Part shown: one piece after another, positions 9,119-26,730 of the stretch
How the letters are laid out: the number at the start of each line of letters is the position of its first letter
How positions within the stretch are numbered: position 1 is the stretch's first letter
Source: Acidobacteriota bacterium
Lineage (GTDB): Bacteria > Acidobacteriota > Terriglobia > Terriglobales > SCQP01
NCBI GenBank assembly: GCA_021826505.1
Contig: JAKAZV010000012.1
Coordinates: 1 to 36,570, forward strand
Reading direction: 5' to 3'
Length of the DNA stretch: 36,570 nucleotides
Notes under the pieces: model-generated
What the model was told of the DNA's origin: nothing
Database searches by the model: none
What the model saw: the letters and a program-made list of their open reading frames with translations, nothing else
Translations under genes and position numbers: made by a program

Positions 9119-9146
9119 GCGAAGCTGATCCCTTCGCCCATTTTTT
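9119..9146 (+). terminator. Weak terminator after trmFO
   Basis: GCGAAG-ctgatcc-CTTCGC then CCATTTTTT, overlapping the convergent nrdJ stop codon. Confidence 0.45.
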
Positions 9147-12096
9147 AGCTGCAGCCGCTGGTCTCTCCGCAGTTAATACACTTATAGCAGGCGCCGTTGG
9201 GCATCATGATGCTGCCGCAATTATGGCAGGCCGGGGCATCGCTGGTGGTGATCACCGGTACGGTTTGGGCCGCGCGCGGCGCGGCTTCGGCCTGGGCCGC
9301 AATCTTGGCCGAACCCGGTCCGCTTTCAATCAGGGGCAGTTGCCCCGCGGTCTCAAGTTCCTCTTTCTGTTCTCCGCGCTCGCCATGCCAATCCCCGACG
9401 CTCGCTTGCGGCGCGGGCTGGGAACCCAGAAATTTCAGCCCCAGCCAGCGGAACAGGTAATCCATGATGGATTTGGCATAACCGATCTCGGGACTGCCCG
9501 ACCACCCGCTGGGCTCAAAACGGGTATGGGAAAATTTGTCCACCAATAATTTCAGCGGTACTCCATGCTGCAGTGAAATGGAGATCGCTGTGGCGAAGCT
9601 ATCCATTAACCCGCTGATCGTCGAGCCTTCCTTGGCCATGGTCACGAAAATTTCGCCCGGCTGGCCATCTTCGTACATGCCCACCGTGATATAGCCTTCG
9701 TGGCCGCCAATCTTGAATTTGTGGGTTATGGACTGGCGCTCGTCGGGCAGCCGCCGCCGGTACGGCCGCGAGGCGGGCACCGATTGCGGCACTTCCAGGC
9801 TGTCGCCGGCGCTGGCTTGGACTTTGCTTTCCCCGGCTTTTTTCGATGCCGAAAGCGGCTGCGCTTTTTTGCTGCCGTCACGGTAAACCGCGACCGCTTT
9901 CAATCCCAGTTTCCAGCCTTCGATCAAGGCCTGCATGACGTCATCCACCGTGGCCGCTTCCGGCAGGTTGACGGTTTTGGAAATGGCGCCCGACAAAAAC
10001 GGCTGGCAGGCGGCCATCATCCGCAGATGCCCGTTGTAATGAATGCTGCGGGTGCCATTGGCCGGCTTGAAGGAACAGTCGAAAACCGGCAAATGCTCGG
10101 CTTTGATATGCGGCGCGCCCTCGATGGTTCCCGTGGCGTCCACGTAAGCCACAATGTCATGGGTTTGCTGGGCCGAATACCCGAGCCGGATCAGCGCCTT
10201 ATCCACGCTCTGATTTACGATCTTGATCACGCCGCCGCCCACCAGGCGTTTATGCTTCACCAGCGCCAGGTCGGGTTCAATTCCCGTCGTGTCGCAGTCC
10301 ATCATGAAGCCGATGGTTCCCGTGGGCGCCAGCACGGTGACTTGGGAATTGCGATAACCCCAGCGCATGCCCAGTTCCAGGGCCGTATCCCAGGCCTCTT
10401 TCGCTCCCGCATAGAGCGCGTCGGGAACATTTTGCGGCTGAATATTGTTGACCGCGGCGCGATGCATCCGCATCACGTCCAGCATGGATTCCCGGTTGGC
10501 CTTGTAACCGCGGAAACTGCCGGCCATGCCATCGCTGGTCAGGGCTTCGGCGATGCGGGCCGACTGGGCATAGGCTTCTCCGCACATGATCGCCGTCACG
10601 CAGCCGCCGTAATCGCGTCCGAGGTCGCTGTCGTATGGCAGTCCATTGGCCATGAGCATGGCGCCCAGATTGGCATAGCCCAGCCCCAGCGGACGGTAAT
10701 CGTGCGAATTACGCGTAATCGCCTCGGTCGGATAGCTGGCGTTATCCACGATGATTTCCTGGGCCGTGATCAGAATATCCACCGCCTGCCGGAATGAGGC
10801 GATATCAAAGCCTGAGCCGGAGGTGAACCGCAGCAGGTTGATCGAGGCCAGGTTGCAGGCGGAATCATCCAGGAACATGTATTCCGAGCAGGGATTCGAG
10901 GCGTTGATGCGGCCCGTGGCCTTGCAGGTATGCCATTGGTTAATGGTGGTGTCGTACTGCATTCCGGGATCGCCGCATTGCCAGGCGGCCTCGGCAATCT
11001 GGCGCATCAGCTCGCGCGCCGGCACGGTGCGCACCGGTTCACCCCGCTGGGCCCCGGCCACGCGCTTCAGGTCCCAGGCGCCATCCGCCACAACTGCCTG
11101 CATGAACTCATCGCTGACCCGCACGCTGTTATTGGCGTTCTGAAAGAAAATCGAGGCATACGCTTCGCCGTCGAGCGCCGGGTCATAGCCGGCCTCGACC
11201 AGAGTCCAGGCTTTTTTCTCCTCTTTGGCCTTGCACCAGATGAAATCTTCCACATCCGGATGGTCCACGTTGAGAATGACCATCTTGGCGGCGCGCCGGG
11301 TCTTGCCTCCGGATTTAATCACCCCCGCGAAGGCGTCAAAGCCTTTCATGAAACTGAGCGGGCCGCTGGCGGTGCCCCCGCCCGACAGGGTTTCCCGCGA
11401 GCTGCGCAAAGGCGAAAGATTGGTTCCCGTGCCCGATCCCCATTTGAAAAGCATGCCCTCGGTCTTGGCCAGGGTCAGAATGCTGTCCAGCGAATCGCTG
11501 ACGGAATTGATAAAGCAGGCCGAGCATTGTGGCTTGCGATAGCCGGTGGCGGCAAACACCGGGCGCTGGGCCTCGCGATCCCAAAACCAGTTGGCGGCAT
11601 TCGATTCCGGCTCCAGGCGATCAACTCCGCAGTTAAACCATACCGGCGAATTGAACGAGGCCTTTTGCCACAGCAGCAGGTGCGCCAGTTCATCATGAAA
11701 AATCCGGGCATCTTCCTCGTTCCGGAAATAACCGTCGCGCAGACCCCAGTCGCGCATCGTTTCCACTACGCGGCCAATCAGTTGCCGCACGCTCGATTCC
11801 CGCGAACTCGCCCCCACCTTGCCATGCAGGTACTTGGATGCCACAATGTTGGCCGCCGTCTGCGACCAGTCCACCGGGACATCCATCTCTTTCTGCTCGA
11901 AAATGGTTTCACCTTTTTCGTTCTGAATCAGCGCCGTGCGTTTTTCCCACCGCACCTCGTCATACGGCGAGACCTTGGCGTCGGTGAAAACACGCTGGAA
12001 ACTCAAGCCGCGATGTTTGCGGCCCGTCGCAACCGGAGTTGTAGTCTCAGCGGTAGTCTGGGAAACGGTGCTGGCGATGGGACCCGATTCGTTCAT
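9145..12096 (-). CDS. nrdJ: Vitamin B12-dependent (class II) ribonucleoside-diphosphate reductase
   Basis: 983 aa; NPCSEYMFLDDSACNLASINL, GLGYANLGAMLM and PTGTIGFMMDCDTTGIEPDLALVK motifs; C-terminal CHNCGSIMMPNGACYKCINCGETSGCS zinc ribbon typical of NrdJ. Confidence 0.96.
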   Translation of the reverse strand: MNESGPIASTVSQTTAETTTPVATGRKHRGLSFQRVFTDAKVSPYDEVRWEKRTALIQNEKGETIFEQKEMDVPVDWSQTAANIVASKYLHGKVGASSRESSVRQLIGRVVETMRDWGLRDGYFRNEEDARIFHDELAHLLLWQKASFNSPVWFNCGVDRLEPESNAANWFWDREAQRPVFAATGYRKPQCSACFINSVSDSLDSILTLAKTEGMLFKWGSGTGTNLSPLRSSRETLSGGGTASGPLSFMKGFDAFAGVIKSGGKTRRAAKMVILNVDHPDVEDFIWCKAKEEKKAWTLVEAGYDPALDGEAYASIFFQNANNSVRVSDEFMQAVVADGAWDLKRVAGAQRGEPVRTVPARELMRQIAEAAWQCGDPGMQYDTTINQWHTCKATGRINASNPCSEYMFLDDSACNLASINLLRFTSGSGFDIASFRQAVDILITAQEIIVDNASYPTEAITRNSHDYRPLGLGYANLGAMLMANGLPYDSDLGRDYGGCVTAIMCGEAYAQSARIAEALTSDGMAGSFRGYKANRESMLDVMRMHRAAVNNIQPQNVPDALYAGAKEAWDTALELGMRWGYRNSQVTVLAPTGTIGFMMDCDTTGIEPDLALVKHKRLVGGGVIKIVNQSVDKALIRLGYSAQQTHDIVAYVDATGTIEGAPHIKAEHLPVFDCSFKPANGTRSIHYNGHLRMMAACQPFLSGAISKTVNLPEAATVDDVMQALIEGWKLGLKAVAVYRDGSKKAQPLSASKKAGESKVQASAGDSLEVPQSVPASRPYRRRLPDERQSITHKFKIGGHEGYITVGMYEDGQPGEIFVTMAKEGSTISGLMDSFATAISISLQHGVPLKLLVDKFSHTRFEPSGWSGSPEIGYAKSIMDYLFRWLGLKFLGSQPAPQASVGDWHGERGEQKEELETAGQLPLIESGPGSAKIAAQAEAAPRAAQTVPVITTSDAPACHNCGSIMMPNGACYKCINCGETSGCS

Positions 12097-12162: not shown

Positions 12163-12191
12163 AAAGTATCGCTACTGATTGTGGTTGTCAA
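12163..12191 (-). promoter_or_regulatory. Sigma70-type promoter of nrdJ
   Basis: TTGACA (12186-12191), 17-nt spacer, TACTTT (12163-12168) on the minus strand. Confidence 0.7.
12169..12184 (-). promoter_or_regulatory. Degenerate NrdR box 2 within the nrdJ promoter spacer
   Basis: CCACAATCAGTAGCGA, about 10/16 to consensus, exactly 32 bp from box 1. Confidence 0.5.
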
Positions 12192-12200
12192 TCCTTTTTA

Positions 12201-12216
12201 ACCCAATATATTGTGT
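12201..12216 (-). promoter_or_regulatory. NrdR box 1 upstream of nrdJ
   Basis: ACACAATATATTGGGT matches the recalled NrdR-box consensus ACACWATATATWGTGT at 15/16 positions by hand count. Confidence 0.75.
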
Positions 12217-18369: not shown

Positions 18370-21300
18370 TCACCCGGCCCGCTTGACGGCTTCCTCTAAT
18401 CGCACCGAGACTATGCGCGAAACCCCCGACTGCGGCATGGTCACTCCGTAGAGCAGCGGCGCGATTTCCATGGTTTTGCGGCTGTGGGTAATGATGATGA
18501 ACTGAGTCTGCGCGCTCATTTCCCGCACCATTTGCGTAAAGCGGCCGATATTGGCGTCGTCGAGCGGCGCGTCCACTTCGTCCAGCACGCAGAAGGGGCT
18601 GGGCTGGAAGCGGAAGACGGCGACCAGCAGCGCCAGCGCGGTCATGGCTTTTTCCCCGCCCGAGAGCAGCATGGCGTTCTGCAATTTTTTGCCCGGCGGC
18701 TGGGCCACGATATCCACTCCGCCCTCGGGATTATTTTCCGCGTCGGTCAGGCGCAAAAAGCCCTGGCCTCCGCCAAACAGAGTGCGGAAAGTTTCCTGAA
18801 AATAGGCATTGATTTTTTCAAACGCCTCGGCGAACTGCTGCCGTGTGACGGTGTCAATTTCCTGAATCGCCTTTTGCGTATCGGCGATGGAATCGAACAA
18901 GTCCTTGCGCTGGGTTTCCAGGAACTGATGGCGTTGCTCGGTCTCCTGAAATTCCTCCAGCGCCATCAGGTTGACCGGTCCCAGATGCTCAATGCGATTG
19001 TGGAGTTCGCGCACTTCCTCGGCCGCCGCCGCTATAACCGCCGCATCGGGAATTTCCGCGGGAATCAGATCCGGGCTCAATTCCTGGCCGAGGTCGTGCA
19101 GAAAGGTCTGGGCCAGATGCTCAAGATCGGAAGCCATGCGCGCCAGCCGCACCTCGCAGCCATTTTGCCGTTCCCGCAGTCCATCCCAGGTCGTGCGCAA
19201 GGCCTGAATTTCGGGTTCCAGTTCCCGCAGCCGGGCGCGCTGGGCATCCAGCGCCGTGGCTTCTTTAGCCTGGAGTTCCGCTTGCTGATCGCGCTGCAGG
19301 GTCATGACGGCTACGGCTTCCTGGCTGGCCAGAATCGCCGCCGAAAGCTCCTGGCGCCGCCGTTCGGCTTCTTCCGCCTCCTGCTGGTGGCGTAGCGCTT
19401 GCTGCTCCAGATCGCGCAGCCGGGCTTCCAGGCGCTGCAATTGCCCGGTCAGCGCCAGCGAGCGCTCCTCCAAACGGGCTAGTTCGGACTGGGTTGCCGC
19501 CTGATGCTGACCGGCTTCTTCCCGCCGCAGCCGCGCGGCATGGCTGGCGTCGGCCAATTGCTGCTGTTCGGTTTCCGCCGCATTCCGGGCCTGATCGGCG
19601 GCCAGGCGCTGCTGGCGCAGTGTCTCCAGGCGCGCCTCCGTCGCCCGCCGCTCGTTCTGACCGCGCTCCAACTCGCCTGCCAATTGCCGCTGGCGGTCCA
19701 TGGCGCGAGTCCATTCCCGCCCCGCCTGTTCGAGCAGTTGCCGGTTGGCCAGAGTTTCTTTTTCCACTTCATGCGCCCCGGCCTGCAGCGCTTGATTTTC
19801 GCCTTCGGCGGCGGCCAGTTCGGCCTCCAGCGCCGTAATGCGAAGCTCCAGTTTTTCCAGATTTTCGCGCACCTCTTCTTCGTTGCGCGTGGTTTCGCGC
19901 AGCTCCCTTTTCAGCGAGAGCGGACCCACGCCGGAGCGCACCCCGCCGCTGACCGTCTGGCGATGAAAGCACTCACCCTGGGCGGTCAGAAAATATGCCC
20001 GCGGGTTCTCGCCCGCCAGCCGCCGGGCCAGCTCGCCTTGGGGAACGATGTAGCCGCTGCCTAGCTTGGGCAGAATGTGTTCAAGCGACTGGCCAAATCC
20101 ATTTAATATGCGCACACATTTTTTCAGCGGCAGTGGGCGTTCGCCGCCGCCCGCCTCTGGATCGGGGCCGGCGCCGATCTCGCCGGGTGAGAACATGGAA
20201 TATTGGCCGTCCTGGGGGTGCACCAGAAAGGTGACCCGGCCTTGCGCATCCTGCCGCACAATCCCCAGGCCGGCATCGGCCTCATCCCAGTTGTGCACCA
20301 CCACGTAATTCAATTCATCCCGTAAAAACTCTTCCACCACGGCCTCATACGCGGGGTCCACTTCCAGAAAATCGGCCAGCACTCCCAGCGGGCGAAATCC
20401 GCCCGCCTGGCCTGCGGGCTGAAATAGATTGCGCACCGCCTCGCTGCTGTAGCCATGGTGGGCGATCATTTCTTCCAGCGAGCGGCACCGGGCCTGCGCA
20501 TCCGCCTTGCGCGCGCGCAGTTCTTCCCTGCGCGGCTTGAGCTGGCGCAATTCCTCCCGTGCGGCCGTCAGTTGCTCCGCCACCGCGGCTTGCCGCCGGG
20601 CCAGCTCGCTATGGGTCTGTTGCAGGCTATGCCCGTTCGCTTCCAGCTCCCGCCGGCGCGCTTCGTGCGCCTCGGCTTCGGCGCGCGCCGCCGTTTGCTC
20701 CTCGTTGCAGCGGGTTAACTGGCGATCGAGGACCGCCGCCGCGGCTTCATTTTCCGCCGCCTGATGCCCCAGCGCCGAAATTTCACTTAAGGTTTGCAGC
20801 AGCCGGAGGCGCAATGCCTCGCTTTGCTGTTCCAGTTCCGCCGCCAGTTGCGCCTCCCGCTGGCTGGCGGCGCAGGCTTCCTGATGGCGCATGCGCGCGG
20901 TTTCAACTTCCCCGGCCAGCGCCTGGGAATCCTGTCCCAACCGGGACTGTTCCTCGCTTAACTCCGCCCGCTGGCCGGCCAGGCCTTGCAGCGCGGCTTC
21001 CCGCACCGTCTGCTGGCGCGCCAGATCCTCAATCTGCTGCCGGTGGAATGCCATCTGGCTCTGGGCGCGGTCGCATTCCAAAGTCAGCCGGTTCAATTCC
21101 ATTTCCGCCGCCCGCAGCCGGACTTCATGCTCCTGCGCGGTCTGCTGGGTCTGGGCGCGATCGGCATCGAGTTGCCGCACGCGCCCCTGCGCGGCTTCGG
21201 CTTCGCCGCGCAACTGCTCGAACTCGGCCTGGCATTCGGTTTGCTGGCGCCCAAGCACGCCGGCCTGGGACACCAGCACATACCGCAATTTATGGTCGTG

Positions 21301-22152
21301 TTCGGCTTTCAATTCCCCATAGCGCCGTGCCTTCGCCGCCTGCCGCTTGAGCGAAGCCATCTGGCGGGTGACTTCCTCGAAAATATCGTTAATCCGGGCG
21401 AGATTCTGGCGCGCCGATTCCAGCTTGGCCTCGGCTAGCTTTCGCTTGGCTTTATATTTGGTGACTCCGGCAGCTTCTTCGATAATGCTGCGGCGTTCGT
21501 ATGGCTTGGCCGCCAGAAGTTGCCCAATCCGGCCCTGCTCGATGATGGCATAGGATTCCGGTCCCAGCCCGGTGCCCATGAATATGTCTTGAATGTCGCG
21601 CAGGCGGCAGGGACGGCCGTTGAGCAGATATTCGCTGTCGCCGCTGCGGAACAGCCGCCGGGTGACCACCACCTCGCCTGCCCGCTGCTGGGTGGGAAAT
21701 TTGCGCCGCTTGCGAATGCTCAACACCACCGCGCCAGTGGTAACGGCGCTTTCCGTTTGCCCGTCCGCATCGGACACAGTCTCATTTACCGGACCCGCGG
21801 AGGCCGGCGCGGTCTCGGCCGTTTCCCAGCCGTCTTCGATTTCTATCGCCGGGTCTTCCACATCTTCGTTGGTTTGATAGACCTCGGGATCAATCAGTGT
21901 CAGGCTGACCTCGGCCAGGCCGCTGGCGGTCCGGTCGCGGCTGCCGGCAAAGATCACATCTTCCATGCGCTGGCCGCGCAGCGATTTGACCGATTGTTCG
22001 CCCAGCACCCAGCCGATGGCATCGGCGACGTTGGATTTTCCGCAGCCATTGGGCCCTACCACCCCCGCCACGCCATGGCCGGGGAACTGCAGTTCGGTGC
22101 GGTCGCAAAACGATTTAAAGCCTTGAATTTGCAGCTTTTTAATTTTCAGCAC
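18370..22152 (-). CDS. smc: Chromosome segregation protein SMC
   Basis: Walker A GVVGPNGCGKSNVADAIGWVLGEQ, coiled coils, hinge region, LSGGEKAMTALALLVAVF, CVLDEVDAPLDDANIGRF. Predicted GTG start (VLKIKKLQIQGFKSF) with GGAGG 7 nt upstream; the track start at 22272 is over-extended. Confidence 0.96.
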   Translation of the reverse strand: MLKIKKLQIQGFKSFCDRTELQFPGHGVAGVVGPNGCGKSNVADAIGWVLGEQSVKSLRGQRMEDVIFAGSRDRTASGLAEVSLTLIDPEVYQTNEDVEDPAIEIEDGWETAETAPASAGPVNETVSDADGQTESAVTTGAVVLSIRKRRKFPTQQRAGEVVVTRRLFRSGDSEYLLNGRPCRLRDIQDIFMGTGLGPESYAIIEQGRIGQLLAAKPYERRSIIEEAAGVTKYKAKRKLAEAKLESARQNLARINDIFEEVTRQMASLKRQAAKARRYGELKAEHDHKLRYVLVSQAGVLGRQQTECQAEFEQLRGEAEAAQGRVRQLDADRAQTQQTAQEHEVRLRAAEMELNRLTLECDRAQSQMAFHRQQIEDLARQQTVREAALQGLAGQRAELSEEQSRLGQDSQALAGEVETARMRHQEACAASQREAQLAAELEQQSEALRLRLLQTLSEISALGHQAAENEAAAAVLDRQLTRCNEEQTAARAEAEAHEARRRELEANGHSLQQTHSELARRQAAVAEQLTAAREELRQLKPRREELRARKADAQARCRSLEEMIAHHGYSSEAVRNLFQPAGQAGGFRPLGVLADFLEVDPAYEAVVEEFLRDELNYVVVHNWDEADAGLGIVRQDAQGRVTFLVHPQDGQYSMFSPGEIGAGPDPEAGGGERPLPLKKCVRILNGFGQSLEHILPKLGSGYIVPQGELARRLAGENPRAYFLTAQGECFHRQTVSGGVRSGVGPLSLKRELRETTRNEEEVRENLEKLELRITALEAELAAAEGENQALQAGAHEVEKETLANRQLLEQAGREWTRAMDRQRQLAGELERGQNERRATEARLETLRQQRLAADQARNAAETEQQQLADASHAARLRREEAGQHQAATQSELARLEERSLALTGQLQRLEARLRDLEQQALRHQQEAEEAERRRQELSAAILASQEAVAVMTLQRDQQAELQAKEATALDAQRARLRELEPEIQALRTTWDGLRERQNGCEVRLARMASDLEHLAQTFLHDLGQELSPDLIPAEIPDAAVIAAAAEEVRELHNRIEHLGPVNLMALEEFQETEQRHQFLETQRKDLFDSIADTQKAIQEIDTVTRQQFAEAFEKINAYFQETFRTLFGGGQGFLRLTDAENNPEGGVDIVAQPPGKKLQNAMLLSGGEKAMTALALLVAVFRFQPSPFCVLDEVDAPLDDANIGRFTQMVREMSAQTQFIIITHSRKTMEIAPLLYGVTMPQSGVSRIVSVRLEEAVKRAG

Positions 22153-22193
22153 GGCACATCCTCCCAGGCCGCCGCCTTCCCAGCCGGCCGCAT

Positions 22194-22209
22194 CCACAGC
22201 ATTTCGAGT
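22194..22209 (-). promoter_or_regulatory. Candidate NrdR-like box 2 upstream of smc
   Basis: ACTCGAAATGCTGTGG, about 10/16 to NrdR consensus, 31 bp from the candidate box at 22225. Confidence 0.35.
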
Positions 22210-22224
22210 CACGCGACGAGACAG

Positions 22225-22240
22225 CCACAATATATCGTGG
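22225..22240 (-). promoter_or_regulatory. Candidate NrdR-like box 1 upstream of smc
   Basis: CCACGATATATTGTGG, 13/16 to NrdR consensus, overlapping a TATATT -10 element. Confidence 0.5.
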
Positions 22241-22257
22241 GTCTGTGGCAAAGACAA
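22229..22257 (-). promoter_or_regulatory. Candidate sigma70 promoter of smc
   Basis: TTGTCT (22252-22257), 17-nt spacer, TATATT (22229-22234) on the minus strand. Confidence 0.5.
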
Positions 22258-23110: not shown

Positions 23111-26100
23111 TTAGAAGTGTAAATTCGCCGAGAACTGAATCAACCGCGGCGAGGCATCACCGCCCAGGAAAGAGCCCAGGATGCTCGTCGGAGCGCTGAC
23201 CGCGGATGTCAGCAAGCCAAAGTTGCTTGGCTGGTTCAAGTTGTGGCCAGGCAAGTAAAAATTGGGATGGTTGAAGAGATTAAAGGCGGAAAATCCGAAG
23301 CCCAACCGGGGGCCATTTTCTCCCGTCAAAGCAAAACTCTTCTTCAATGTCAAATCCGTATCGAAATAATTCGGACCATGATACTGATTCCGCATCTGGT
23401 TGCCAAAGAAATTCTGCGATCCCGCGGGTGTAAACATCGCAGCCGTTAGACATGGCGTGTTAACCGCGCTGGCAGTACAGTTCACCGACCCCGAGACAGG
23501 ATTGGCAAATACCGTACCGCCATAATTCGTCCCGGAAATCAGATTAGTGGCTGCTGAGTTAATCACGGTAAAGGGGAAGCCGGTATGGTAGAAAACCGTG
23601 CCTGCGACCGTCCATCCGCCAATCGCATCGTTGAGCAAGGCATCGCGGGAGGAAATGGGCAGCCGGTAGACATAGTTGGCATTGAATACGTGCCGCAGAT
23701 CATAATCGGAATTCCCGTAGTTGGCATTGGGGTTAAACGGATTCTGAGGATTTCCGTAGCTGGCATTGGTAGTGAATGGCAGATCGCCGCCATTGGAGAC
23801 CATATCCAGCGCATGGCTGTAGGTATAATTGGCGGTAATTTCTCCGCCGTTAAACCGGTACTGCACTGAAGTCGCCAGTCCGTTATAGTTGGAGCGCCCA
23901 ATGCTCTCCGCCTGGGTGACACCGGAAAATCTGGAATCGGCCGGCGCGGAGGGCAATCCGACAAAGCAGCTGCCGGGACAGAATGCATTCAAGCCGTTAT
24001 TCAGGAACAATTCGTTCATGCCGCGGTTGCCGACATAATTCAAGGTCAATGCCAGGTTGTCCGTGAACTGGTGCTCCACCGCCAGGTTCCATTCCTGATA
24101 CATCGGAATTTTCACCTGGGCATCCGTGGTGGTAAATCCAGGCGGGCTGAACAGAGGATCAGCTGCCGCAATTTGCGCCGCGGTCTGTCCCGCCGCAAAC
24201 CCTTTTTGAAAACCAGCATTGGCCGCGGCCGCATCCGCGAAAAGATTGGATGTTTCTCCGGGTGAAATGTTATCGAAAGCTGGAACGAATGTCGGATCAT
24301 ACGGCGGATTCTGTGAAAGGTTATCCACTAATCCCGCGGGAAAAGCATCATAAAATAGTCCATATCCGCCCCGCAGCACCGTGTTATGCCCGAATGGCCG
24401 GTACGTGAAGCCAAATCGTGGCTGCCAGAGCAGTGACTGCTCGGTCGGGAATGCTTGATGCAGGCCGGATACGATCGTCTGGTTGTAAGGAATATTGGGG
24501 TTGTGATTGATGGATCCGAAGGGGCCGGAGAAATTCGCGAAGCAATTATGCTGACAGACCGGGTTGGAATTATGGTCAAATCGCAGTGCGATAGTCACCT
24601 TGAAATTCGGCTGCATCTGCCAGTCATCTTCAATGTAGGCGCCCAATTGATAATCCGCGATGGGTTCCGTCAGACTTTGTGGAAAACTCATTTGTAATAT
24701 GCTGAGATTGCCGGAAGCTCCGGTAACCGGATCGGTTCCACCGTTATAGAGCGCGTCCAAGGTGAAGGGAATCAGCAAACCGCTGGAGAAAAACCCATAA
24801 TCCTGGTCGCTCACATCATAGCGCCGGAAATTGATCCCGGTTTTCAGGGTCTGATTGCCATACGTTTTGGACAAATCGTCAATCATCTGAAATTGGGTGA
24901 CGTTGCGCCCTTGCGGCCAGATATAATTTTCACCGCCCAGATTGCTTAAAGATCCATCTCCCATTAATAAAGTCGTGGGAAATGCTGCCAGAGTTTGGGC
25001 CGGATTCAAATTATTAAAAATGGCGGAATACCATTGATCCGTAAATTCCAGATTGTTGATCGTGGTGGAATTAAACACATGATTCCAGCTCAACTGGCCC
25101 TGATATTCCGGTTGAACGCTGGTGGCGTTGAACAGCGAATTGATCGGATCGGTGTACGTGGCTTGAGTGCCGTGATCCGTCTGGAAACGGAAAAATACGT
25201 GGTCGTTATCGCTTACGTTCTGATCAACCCGAACCGCGAGCAGATATTCATGCGTGAAATTCCCCGCCGTGGACCTGAAGGTTAAAGTGCAAGGCACTGT
25301 AGTACCCAAACCACCACTTCCGGTAAATGATGCTCCTCCAGCAGCACTGCAAGTAGCCGCTGGGCTATTCGCCGCCACCGCGCCACTGGCGCCGGGAGCT
25401 GCGTTGTAAAGAGAAAACATGTTCTTATAAAACGGAATCGACTTGGTCAATCCCAGGGTGGTCAGATTCGCTAATGTGTCGCTTTCGAACAGCGGCGATG
25501 GAATAAATGCCTGCTGGCTGGTGGGAATGACCACCCGCAGGCCTTCATAATCCACAAAGAAAAAGGTCTTATTGTGGAAAATCGGTCCGCCAAGGTCCGC
25601 TGCCCATTGATTCGCGTTATCAAAGGGCCGTTTCACCCCGGCCGCATTATTGAAGAAATCATTGGCGTTCATGGCGCGGCCATTCCATTCCCAGGTGGCA
25701 TCGCCATGAAATCGATTGCCACCGGATTTGGTCACATAGTTGACCGTGGCGCCGGCCAACTGTCCATATTGCCCCGAATAGCCGTTATTGGTGACGGTGG
25801 CCGAGGCAATCTCGTTTTGCCCGAGTGTCAGGTTCGTGGCGCCGGAGTTGTTCAGGTTAAGAAATGGATCATTATCGTTCTGGCCATCGAGCGTGAATAA
25901 ATTGGAAGTTGCAGGCAGCCCGTAGGTCGAAAAATTGCCATAACCCATCTCCGTATTCATAACCGCGCCGGGAGATGTCTGCGCAATATCCGTGATGTCA
26001 TTGCCGGGATTCGGCAAATTCTGGATCTGCTGCTCGGTAAAATGCGTGGAGACGTTGGCGGATGAGGTTTGCAGCAATGGCGTGCTGCCGGTCACATTCA

Positions 26101-26491
26101 CCACTTGCGTCGCAGATCCGAGTTGCAGACTGAAGGGAGCCGACGTGGTGCCGTCGAGCACGACATTGACAACCTGGGCCGAGGTCTTGAAGCCTTTGGC
26201 CGTCACCGTGACCTTAAATTGTCCCGGTGCCAGCAGCGGAAAGTTATATCTGCCCTGGGCATCGGTGGTGCGGGTTGCCGTGGTTCCCTGGGACAGACTC
26301 AACAGGGTTACCGTGGCGCCCGGCACGGCCGCGCCCGATGGATCGGTCACCGCGCCGCTCACTGCGCCAGTGGTAAATGACTGTGCCAGCAATGCGGCCG
26401 ACAGACCTGCAATAGCAAAAACCGCGAAGAGAATTTGGCGAATTTTCATAAAATTCATGTTCCTCAGCGAACTTTTGATCTCGATTTGCAC
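23111..26491 (-). CDS. TonB-dependent receptor with N-terminal carboxypeptidase-regulatory-like domain (Oar-like)
   Basis: Signal peptide; GAVSGAVTDPSGAAVPGATVTLLSLSQGTTATRTTDAQGRYNFPLLAPGQFKVTV; plug and long beta-barrel region; C-terminal RLIQFSANLHF. Start may be at the MNFMK or MKIRQ methionine. Confidence 0.92.
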   Translation of the reverse strand: MQIEIKSSLRNMNFMKIRQILFAVFAIAGLSAALLAQSFTTGAVSGAVTDPSGAAVPGATVTLLSLSQGTTATRTTDAQGRYNFPLLAPGQFKVTVTAKGFKTSAQVVNVVLDGTTSAPFSLQLGSATQVVNVTGSTPLLQTSSANVSTHFTEQQIQNLPNPGNDITDIAQTSPGAVMNTEMGYGNFSTYGLPATSNLFTLDGQNDNDPFLNLNNSGATNLTLGQNEIASATVTNNGYSGQYGQLAGATVNYVTKSGGNRFHGDATWEWNGRAMNANDFFNNAAGVKRPFDNANQWAADLGGPIFHNKTFFFVDYEGLRVVIPTSQQAFIPSPLFESDTLANLTTLGLTKSIPFYKNMFSLYNAAPGASGAVAANSPAATCSAAGGASFTGSGGLGTTVPCTLTFRSTAGNFTHEYLLAVRVDQNVSDNDHVFFRFQTDHGTQATYTDPINSLFNATSVQPEYQGQLSWNHVFNSTTINNLEFTDQWYSAIFNNLNPAQTLAAFPTTLLMGDGSLSNLGGENYIWPQGRNVTQFQMIDDLSKTYGNQTLKTGINFRRYDVSDQDYGFFSSGLLIPFTLDALYNGGTDPVTGASGNLSILQMSFPQSLTEPIADYQLGAYIEDDWQMQPNFKVTIALRFDHNSNPVCQHNCFANFSGPFGSINHNPNIPYNQTIVSGLHQAFPTEQSLLWQPRFGFTYRPFGHNTVLRGGYGLFYDAFPAGLVDNLSQNPPYDPTFVPAFDNISPGETSNLFADAAAANAGFQKGFAAGQTAAQIAAADPLFSPPGFTTTDAQVKIPMYQEWNLAVEHQFTDNLALTLNYVGNRGMNELFLNNGLNAFCPGSCFVGLPSAPADSRFSGVTQAESIGRSNYNGLATSVQYRFNGGEITANYTYSHALDMVSNGGDLPFTTNASYGNPQNPFNPNANYGNSDYDLRHVFNANYVYRLPISSRDALLNDAIGGWTVAGTVFYHTGFPFTVINSAATNLISGTNYGGTVFANPVSGSVNCTASAVNTPCLTAAMFTPAGSQNFFGNQMRNQYHGPNYFDTDLTLKKSFALTGENGPRLGFGFSAFNLFNHPNFYLPGHNLNQPSNFGLLTSAVSAPTSILGSFLGGDASPRLIQFSANLHF

Positions 26492-26636: not shown

Positions 26637-26730
26637 TTACATATGAAGAAAATTATGAAAATTTTACAGCCCGTAAATCCAATTTCGTGTATTTAACCCG
26701 CCATGACAATTCAAAATATGGTATTTTGTA

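Follow-up and report, generated by a model that had tools for sequence, protein, structure and literature searches.

Results

A pair of NrdR boxes lies upstream of smc

The window analysed here is a stretch of 36,570 nucleotides from an Acidobacteriota metagenome-assembled genome (MAG) of 2.75 Mb that is 89.6% complete (assembly GCA_021826505.1, contig JAKAZV010000012.1). On its minus strand it encodes smc (18370-22152), a condensin ATPase of 1260 amino acids that starts with GTG at 22152, is full length and has the SMC_N (Pfam, 1.5e-60) and SMC_hinge (2.5e-10) domains. A Shine-Dalgarno-like GGGAGGA (22159-22165, minus strand) precedes the start codon. Further upstream, the minus strand reads CCACGATATATTGTGG at 22240-22225, which matches 13 of 16 positions of the NrdR-box consensus acaCwAtATaTwGtgt (published as acaCwAtATaTwGtg, cited in PMC4009431). 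A second, degenerate box, ACTCGAAATGCTGTGG (minus strand, 22209-22194), matches 10 of 16 positions and lies exactly 31 bp downstream, which leaves a spacer of 15 bp. A predicted sigma-70 promoter, TTGTCT-17-TATATT (22257-22229), is one of two sigma-70-like sites in this region, and its -10 lies inside box 1, so that the boxes are at -10 and about +21.

The window also encodes nrdJ (9145-12096, minus strand), the B12-dependent (class II) ribonucleotide reductase and the standard target of NrdR, recognized from its translation and an orthologue search in relatives. It is preceded by ACACAATATATTGGGT (12201-12216, minus strand) and, 32 bp away, CCACAATCAGTAGCGA (12169-12184, minus strand). The earlier note, which described the smc pair correctly, stated that nrdJ has the same arrangement. 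This has to be corrected: the kind of pair is the same, but the register is different. The nrdJ boxes straddle the -35 of the predicted promoter TTGACA-17-TACTTT (12163-12191, minus strand) at -52/-20.

The genome contains a canonical nrdR gene (our locus G000:C40:59469). The encoded protein, MKCPFCGHLEDKVVDSRESKE..., has a Zn ribbon (2.0e-21) and carries D15 and R17, the residues reported to read the NrdR box (PMC9110341).

The pair at smc is unlikely to be a chance match

To score the sites, a palindromic position weight matrix (PWM) was built from 20 distinct boxes upstream of nrdJ in the relatives, and a softened version was also used. The nrdJ box of this genome is one of the 20 training sites, but no smc site is. 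In 339 kb of this genome, window included, the two best pairs at a spacing of 30-32 bp are those of nrdJ (26.9 bits; 19.3 and 7.6 for the single boxes) and smc (24.3 bits; 18.4 and 5.9). No position in the 303 kb outside the window reaches the score of smc box 1, and a partner as good as box 2 at an allowed spacing has P = 0.002. No pair of 16 bits or more occurs in 703 kb of control DNA, and 0 of 3000 shuffles of the smc upstream region reach the pair score. In the sister species box 1 is identical, box 2 is conserved at 15/16 and the predicted promoter is conserved, while the DNA upstream has diverged. A third high-scoring pair in the window (26677-26724, 18.8 bits, 32 bp apart) lies in DNA of 31% GC upstream of a gene for a TonB-type outer-membrane protein (23111-26491). 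It is not conserved in the sister species (4.1 bits) and is therefore taken as chance. A covariance-type model (CM) built from nrdJ pairs learned the whole nrdJ promoter and found essentially only nrdJ, so it says nothing about smc.

The pair is conserved across the phylum

smc upstream regions were read from 59 genomes of an order-level set (58 of the order plus one Bryobacteraceae record) and from 60 genomes of 36 other families of the phylum, which were not used to train the PWM. Compared with 1140 real 350-bp windows (99th percentile of the pair score 7.4, maximum 13.9), 49/59 and 44/60 smc regions exceed the 99th percentile (0.6 expected for the latter set), and 40/59 and 27/60 exceed the maximum. 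nrdJ gives 48/53 and 41/53. Regions upstream of 239 other ORFs reach 8.7 at the 99th percentile and 11.1 at most. Since the genomes within the order are related, their counts are not independent events and the family count is the fairer measure: 27 of the 36 other families have a genome above the 99th percentile.

When we asked where the best partner of the strongest box lies within 16-60 bp on either side, the smc promoters of the other families gave 31 (21 cases), 32 (12) and 30 bp (2), altogether 35 of 41 cases with a strong box; in the order-level set it was 30 or 31 bp in 32 of 47. Spacers are 14-16 bp in most relatives. This is the spacing at which NrdR acts in vitro and in vivo: it binds boxes with spacers of 14-17 bp (30-33 bp between centres) and of 24-27 bp, but poorly at other spacings (PMC12051234).

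Notably, the pair occupies three fixed registers relative to the predicted promoters, which are consensus predictions. It is at -81/-51 in most of the families numbered f1 and f2 in our set and some others, at -55/-24 in families f24, f15, f46, f58 and others, and at -10/+21 in the window's genus, in families f71, f11, f70, f27 and f32 and in parts of f21. For comparison, nrdJ is at -50/-20. The repeated exact registers argue that the pair acts on smc transcription. The upstream neighbours of smc vary and mostly point in the same direction as smc, so a divergent gene is not the usual owner of the site.

In contrast, the regions upstream of scpA, the SMC partner gene, have no pair above the 99th percentile in 30 relatives (0/30). 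NrdR was found in 284 of 297 genomes of the phylum. One genome with a strong smc pair (G182) has no NrdR hit, perhaps due to an assembly gap. Of the 16 phylum genomes without a pair, most have a co-directional ORF close before smc, so smc is probably read from an upstream promoter there, but not all of them are explained by an operon. In the genus g14, five genomes (G031, G036, G045, G046 and G059) have no nrdJ match; the smc boxes are degraded in G031, G036 and G046, whereas G045 and G059 keep good ones.

A DnaA box overlaps the proximal box in a sister family

In f2, a sister family, a perfect DnaA box, TTATCCACA, overlaps the proximal NrdR box of smc by five bases in 38 of 46 genomes, about -110 to -160 from the smc start (for example at the loci L026, L042 and L060). 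It occurs in only 3 of 1140 background windows and in 1 of 53 nrdJ promoters. In the genus g7 the DnaA box remains while the NrdR box has decayed. The window's family has no exact DnaA box upstream of smc (0/12).

Discussion

NrdR is described as a dedicated repressor of ribonucleotide reductase genes. Based on conserved sequence evidence, we predict with high confidence, although without binding or expression data, that the site upstream of smc is a paired NrdR operator. The earlier note had proposed control of smc by NrdR as a link between chromosome condensation and dNTP supply, and this inference is supported: an nrdR gene is present, and the pair is conserved upstream of smc orthologues in the genus, the order and most of the other families sampled. 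In the model that we favor, the NrdR tetramer binds the two boxes, three helical turns apart, when dATP is high relative to ATP. Since in this genome one box covers the predicted -10 and the other lies at about +21, binding should exclude RNA polymerase and repress smc together with nrdJ. When dNTP demand is high, NrdR would let go and both genes would be made. Binding, nucleotide dependence and repression are inferred from the biology of NrdR (PMC9110341, PMC12051234) and from site placement; the supposed purpose of matching the supply of SMC to DNA synthesis is also an inference. These bacteria thus probably couple chromosome folding to the supply of DNA precursors. smc carries the pair and scpA does not, which suggests that the dosage of SMC itself is the controlled quantity.

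Other explanations appear less likely. The palindrome CCACAA...TTGTGG could be a by-product of a DnaA box in a promoter mainly controlled by DnaA, as the situation in f2 and g7 might suggest. However, neither the window's family nor the 60 phylum promoters have an exact DnaA box upstream of smc, yet they carry the full palindrome and its partner at 30-32 bp, and DnaA explains neither the palindrome nor the spacing; we regard this as unlikely. Equally improbable is another, unknown regulator. Short palindromes can be shared between regulators and binding data do not exist, but the site model comes only from nrdJ promoters, the three-turn spacing is characteristic of NrdR (PMC12051234) and NrdR is nearly universal in the phylum. 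A chance match around an AT-rich -10 could be favored by the TATATT inside box 1 and by the weakness of box 2, but this is very improbable in view of the shuffling experiment, the control DNA and the conservation in the sister species and, in different registers, across the phylum.

The direction of control is less certain. Where the boxes are at -81/-51, they lie upstream of the -35 and simple occlusion is less obvious, and NrdR of P. aeruginosa was reported to activate topA (PMC4409342). On the other hand, the box on the -10 in the window's genus fits repression, and the topA claim is questioned because that promoter has a single box (PMC12051234). Activation of smc, at least in the species with the upstream register, where the direction is open, is possible but less likely.

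The arrangement at smc resembles the NrdR operators of ribonucleotide reductase operons (nrdHIEF, nrdAB, nrdDG, nrdRJ) in having two 16-bp palindromes with centres about three turns apart that overlap a sigma-70 promoter, here a predicted one, in a genome with nrdR. It differs in that the controlled gene is smc and that in many families the pair lies upstream of the promoter instead of across it. topA of P. aeruginosa, likewise a DNA-topology gene with an NrdR box, is the only target outside ribonucleotide reduction discussed in the papers read; it has one box, whereas smc has a correctly spaced pair conserved across a phylum. smc would be the best-supported NrdR target outside the ribonucleotide reductase genes. 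No paper that we reviewed names such a target with two boxes, and literature searches for NrdR with smc, condensin or Acidobacteria found no relevant paper, although a mention in Rodionov and Gelfand 2005 cannot be excluded. DnaA-controlled promoters such as that of E. coli nrdAB are comparable to the f2 smc promoters with their perfect DnaA box, but the window's own smc promoter has no exact one.

It is tempting to speculate, and somewhat more likely than not, that control of smc by the dATP sensor NrdR is an ancient trait of the Acidobacteriota, that the operator has moved between the three registers and that in one family it has fused with a DnaA box. The replication initiator and the dNTP sensor would then compete for one site and set the supply of condensin by both signals.

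Single boxes are also found apart from such pairs. A strict single-box pattern applied to 60 genomes gave about 21 sites, of which 6 were at smc and 2 at nrdJ; the other sites lack a good partner. At three loci (L131, L148 and L150, around position 1501) near-perfect single palindromes, CCACAAGATNTTGTGG, have no spaced partner, and in L148 and L150 they are followed by TGTTTTGTGCCC, possibly a different repeated element. At the loci L144 and L146, from two distant genomes, NrdR-like single boxes lie near genes whose translated products look alike (small membrane proteins).
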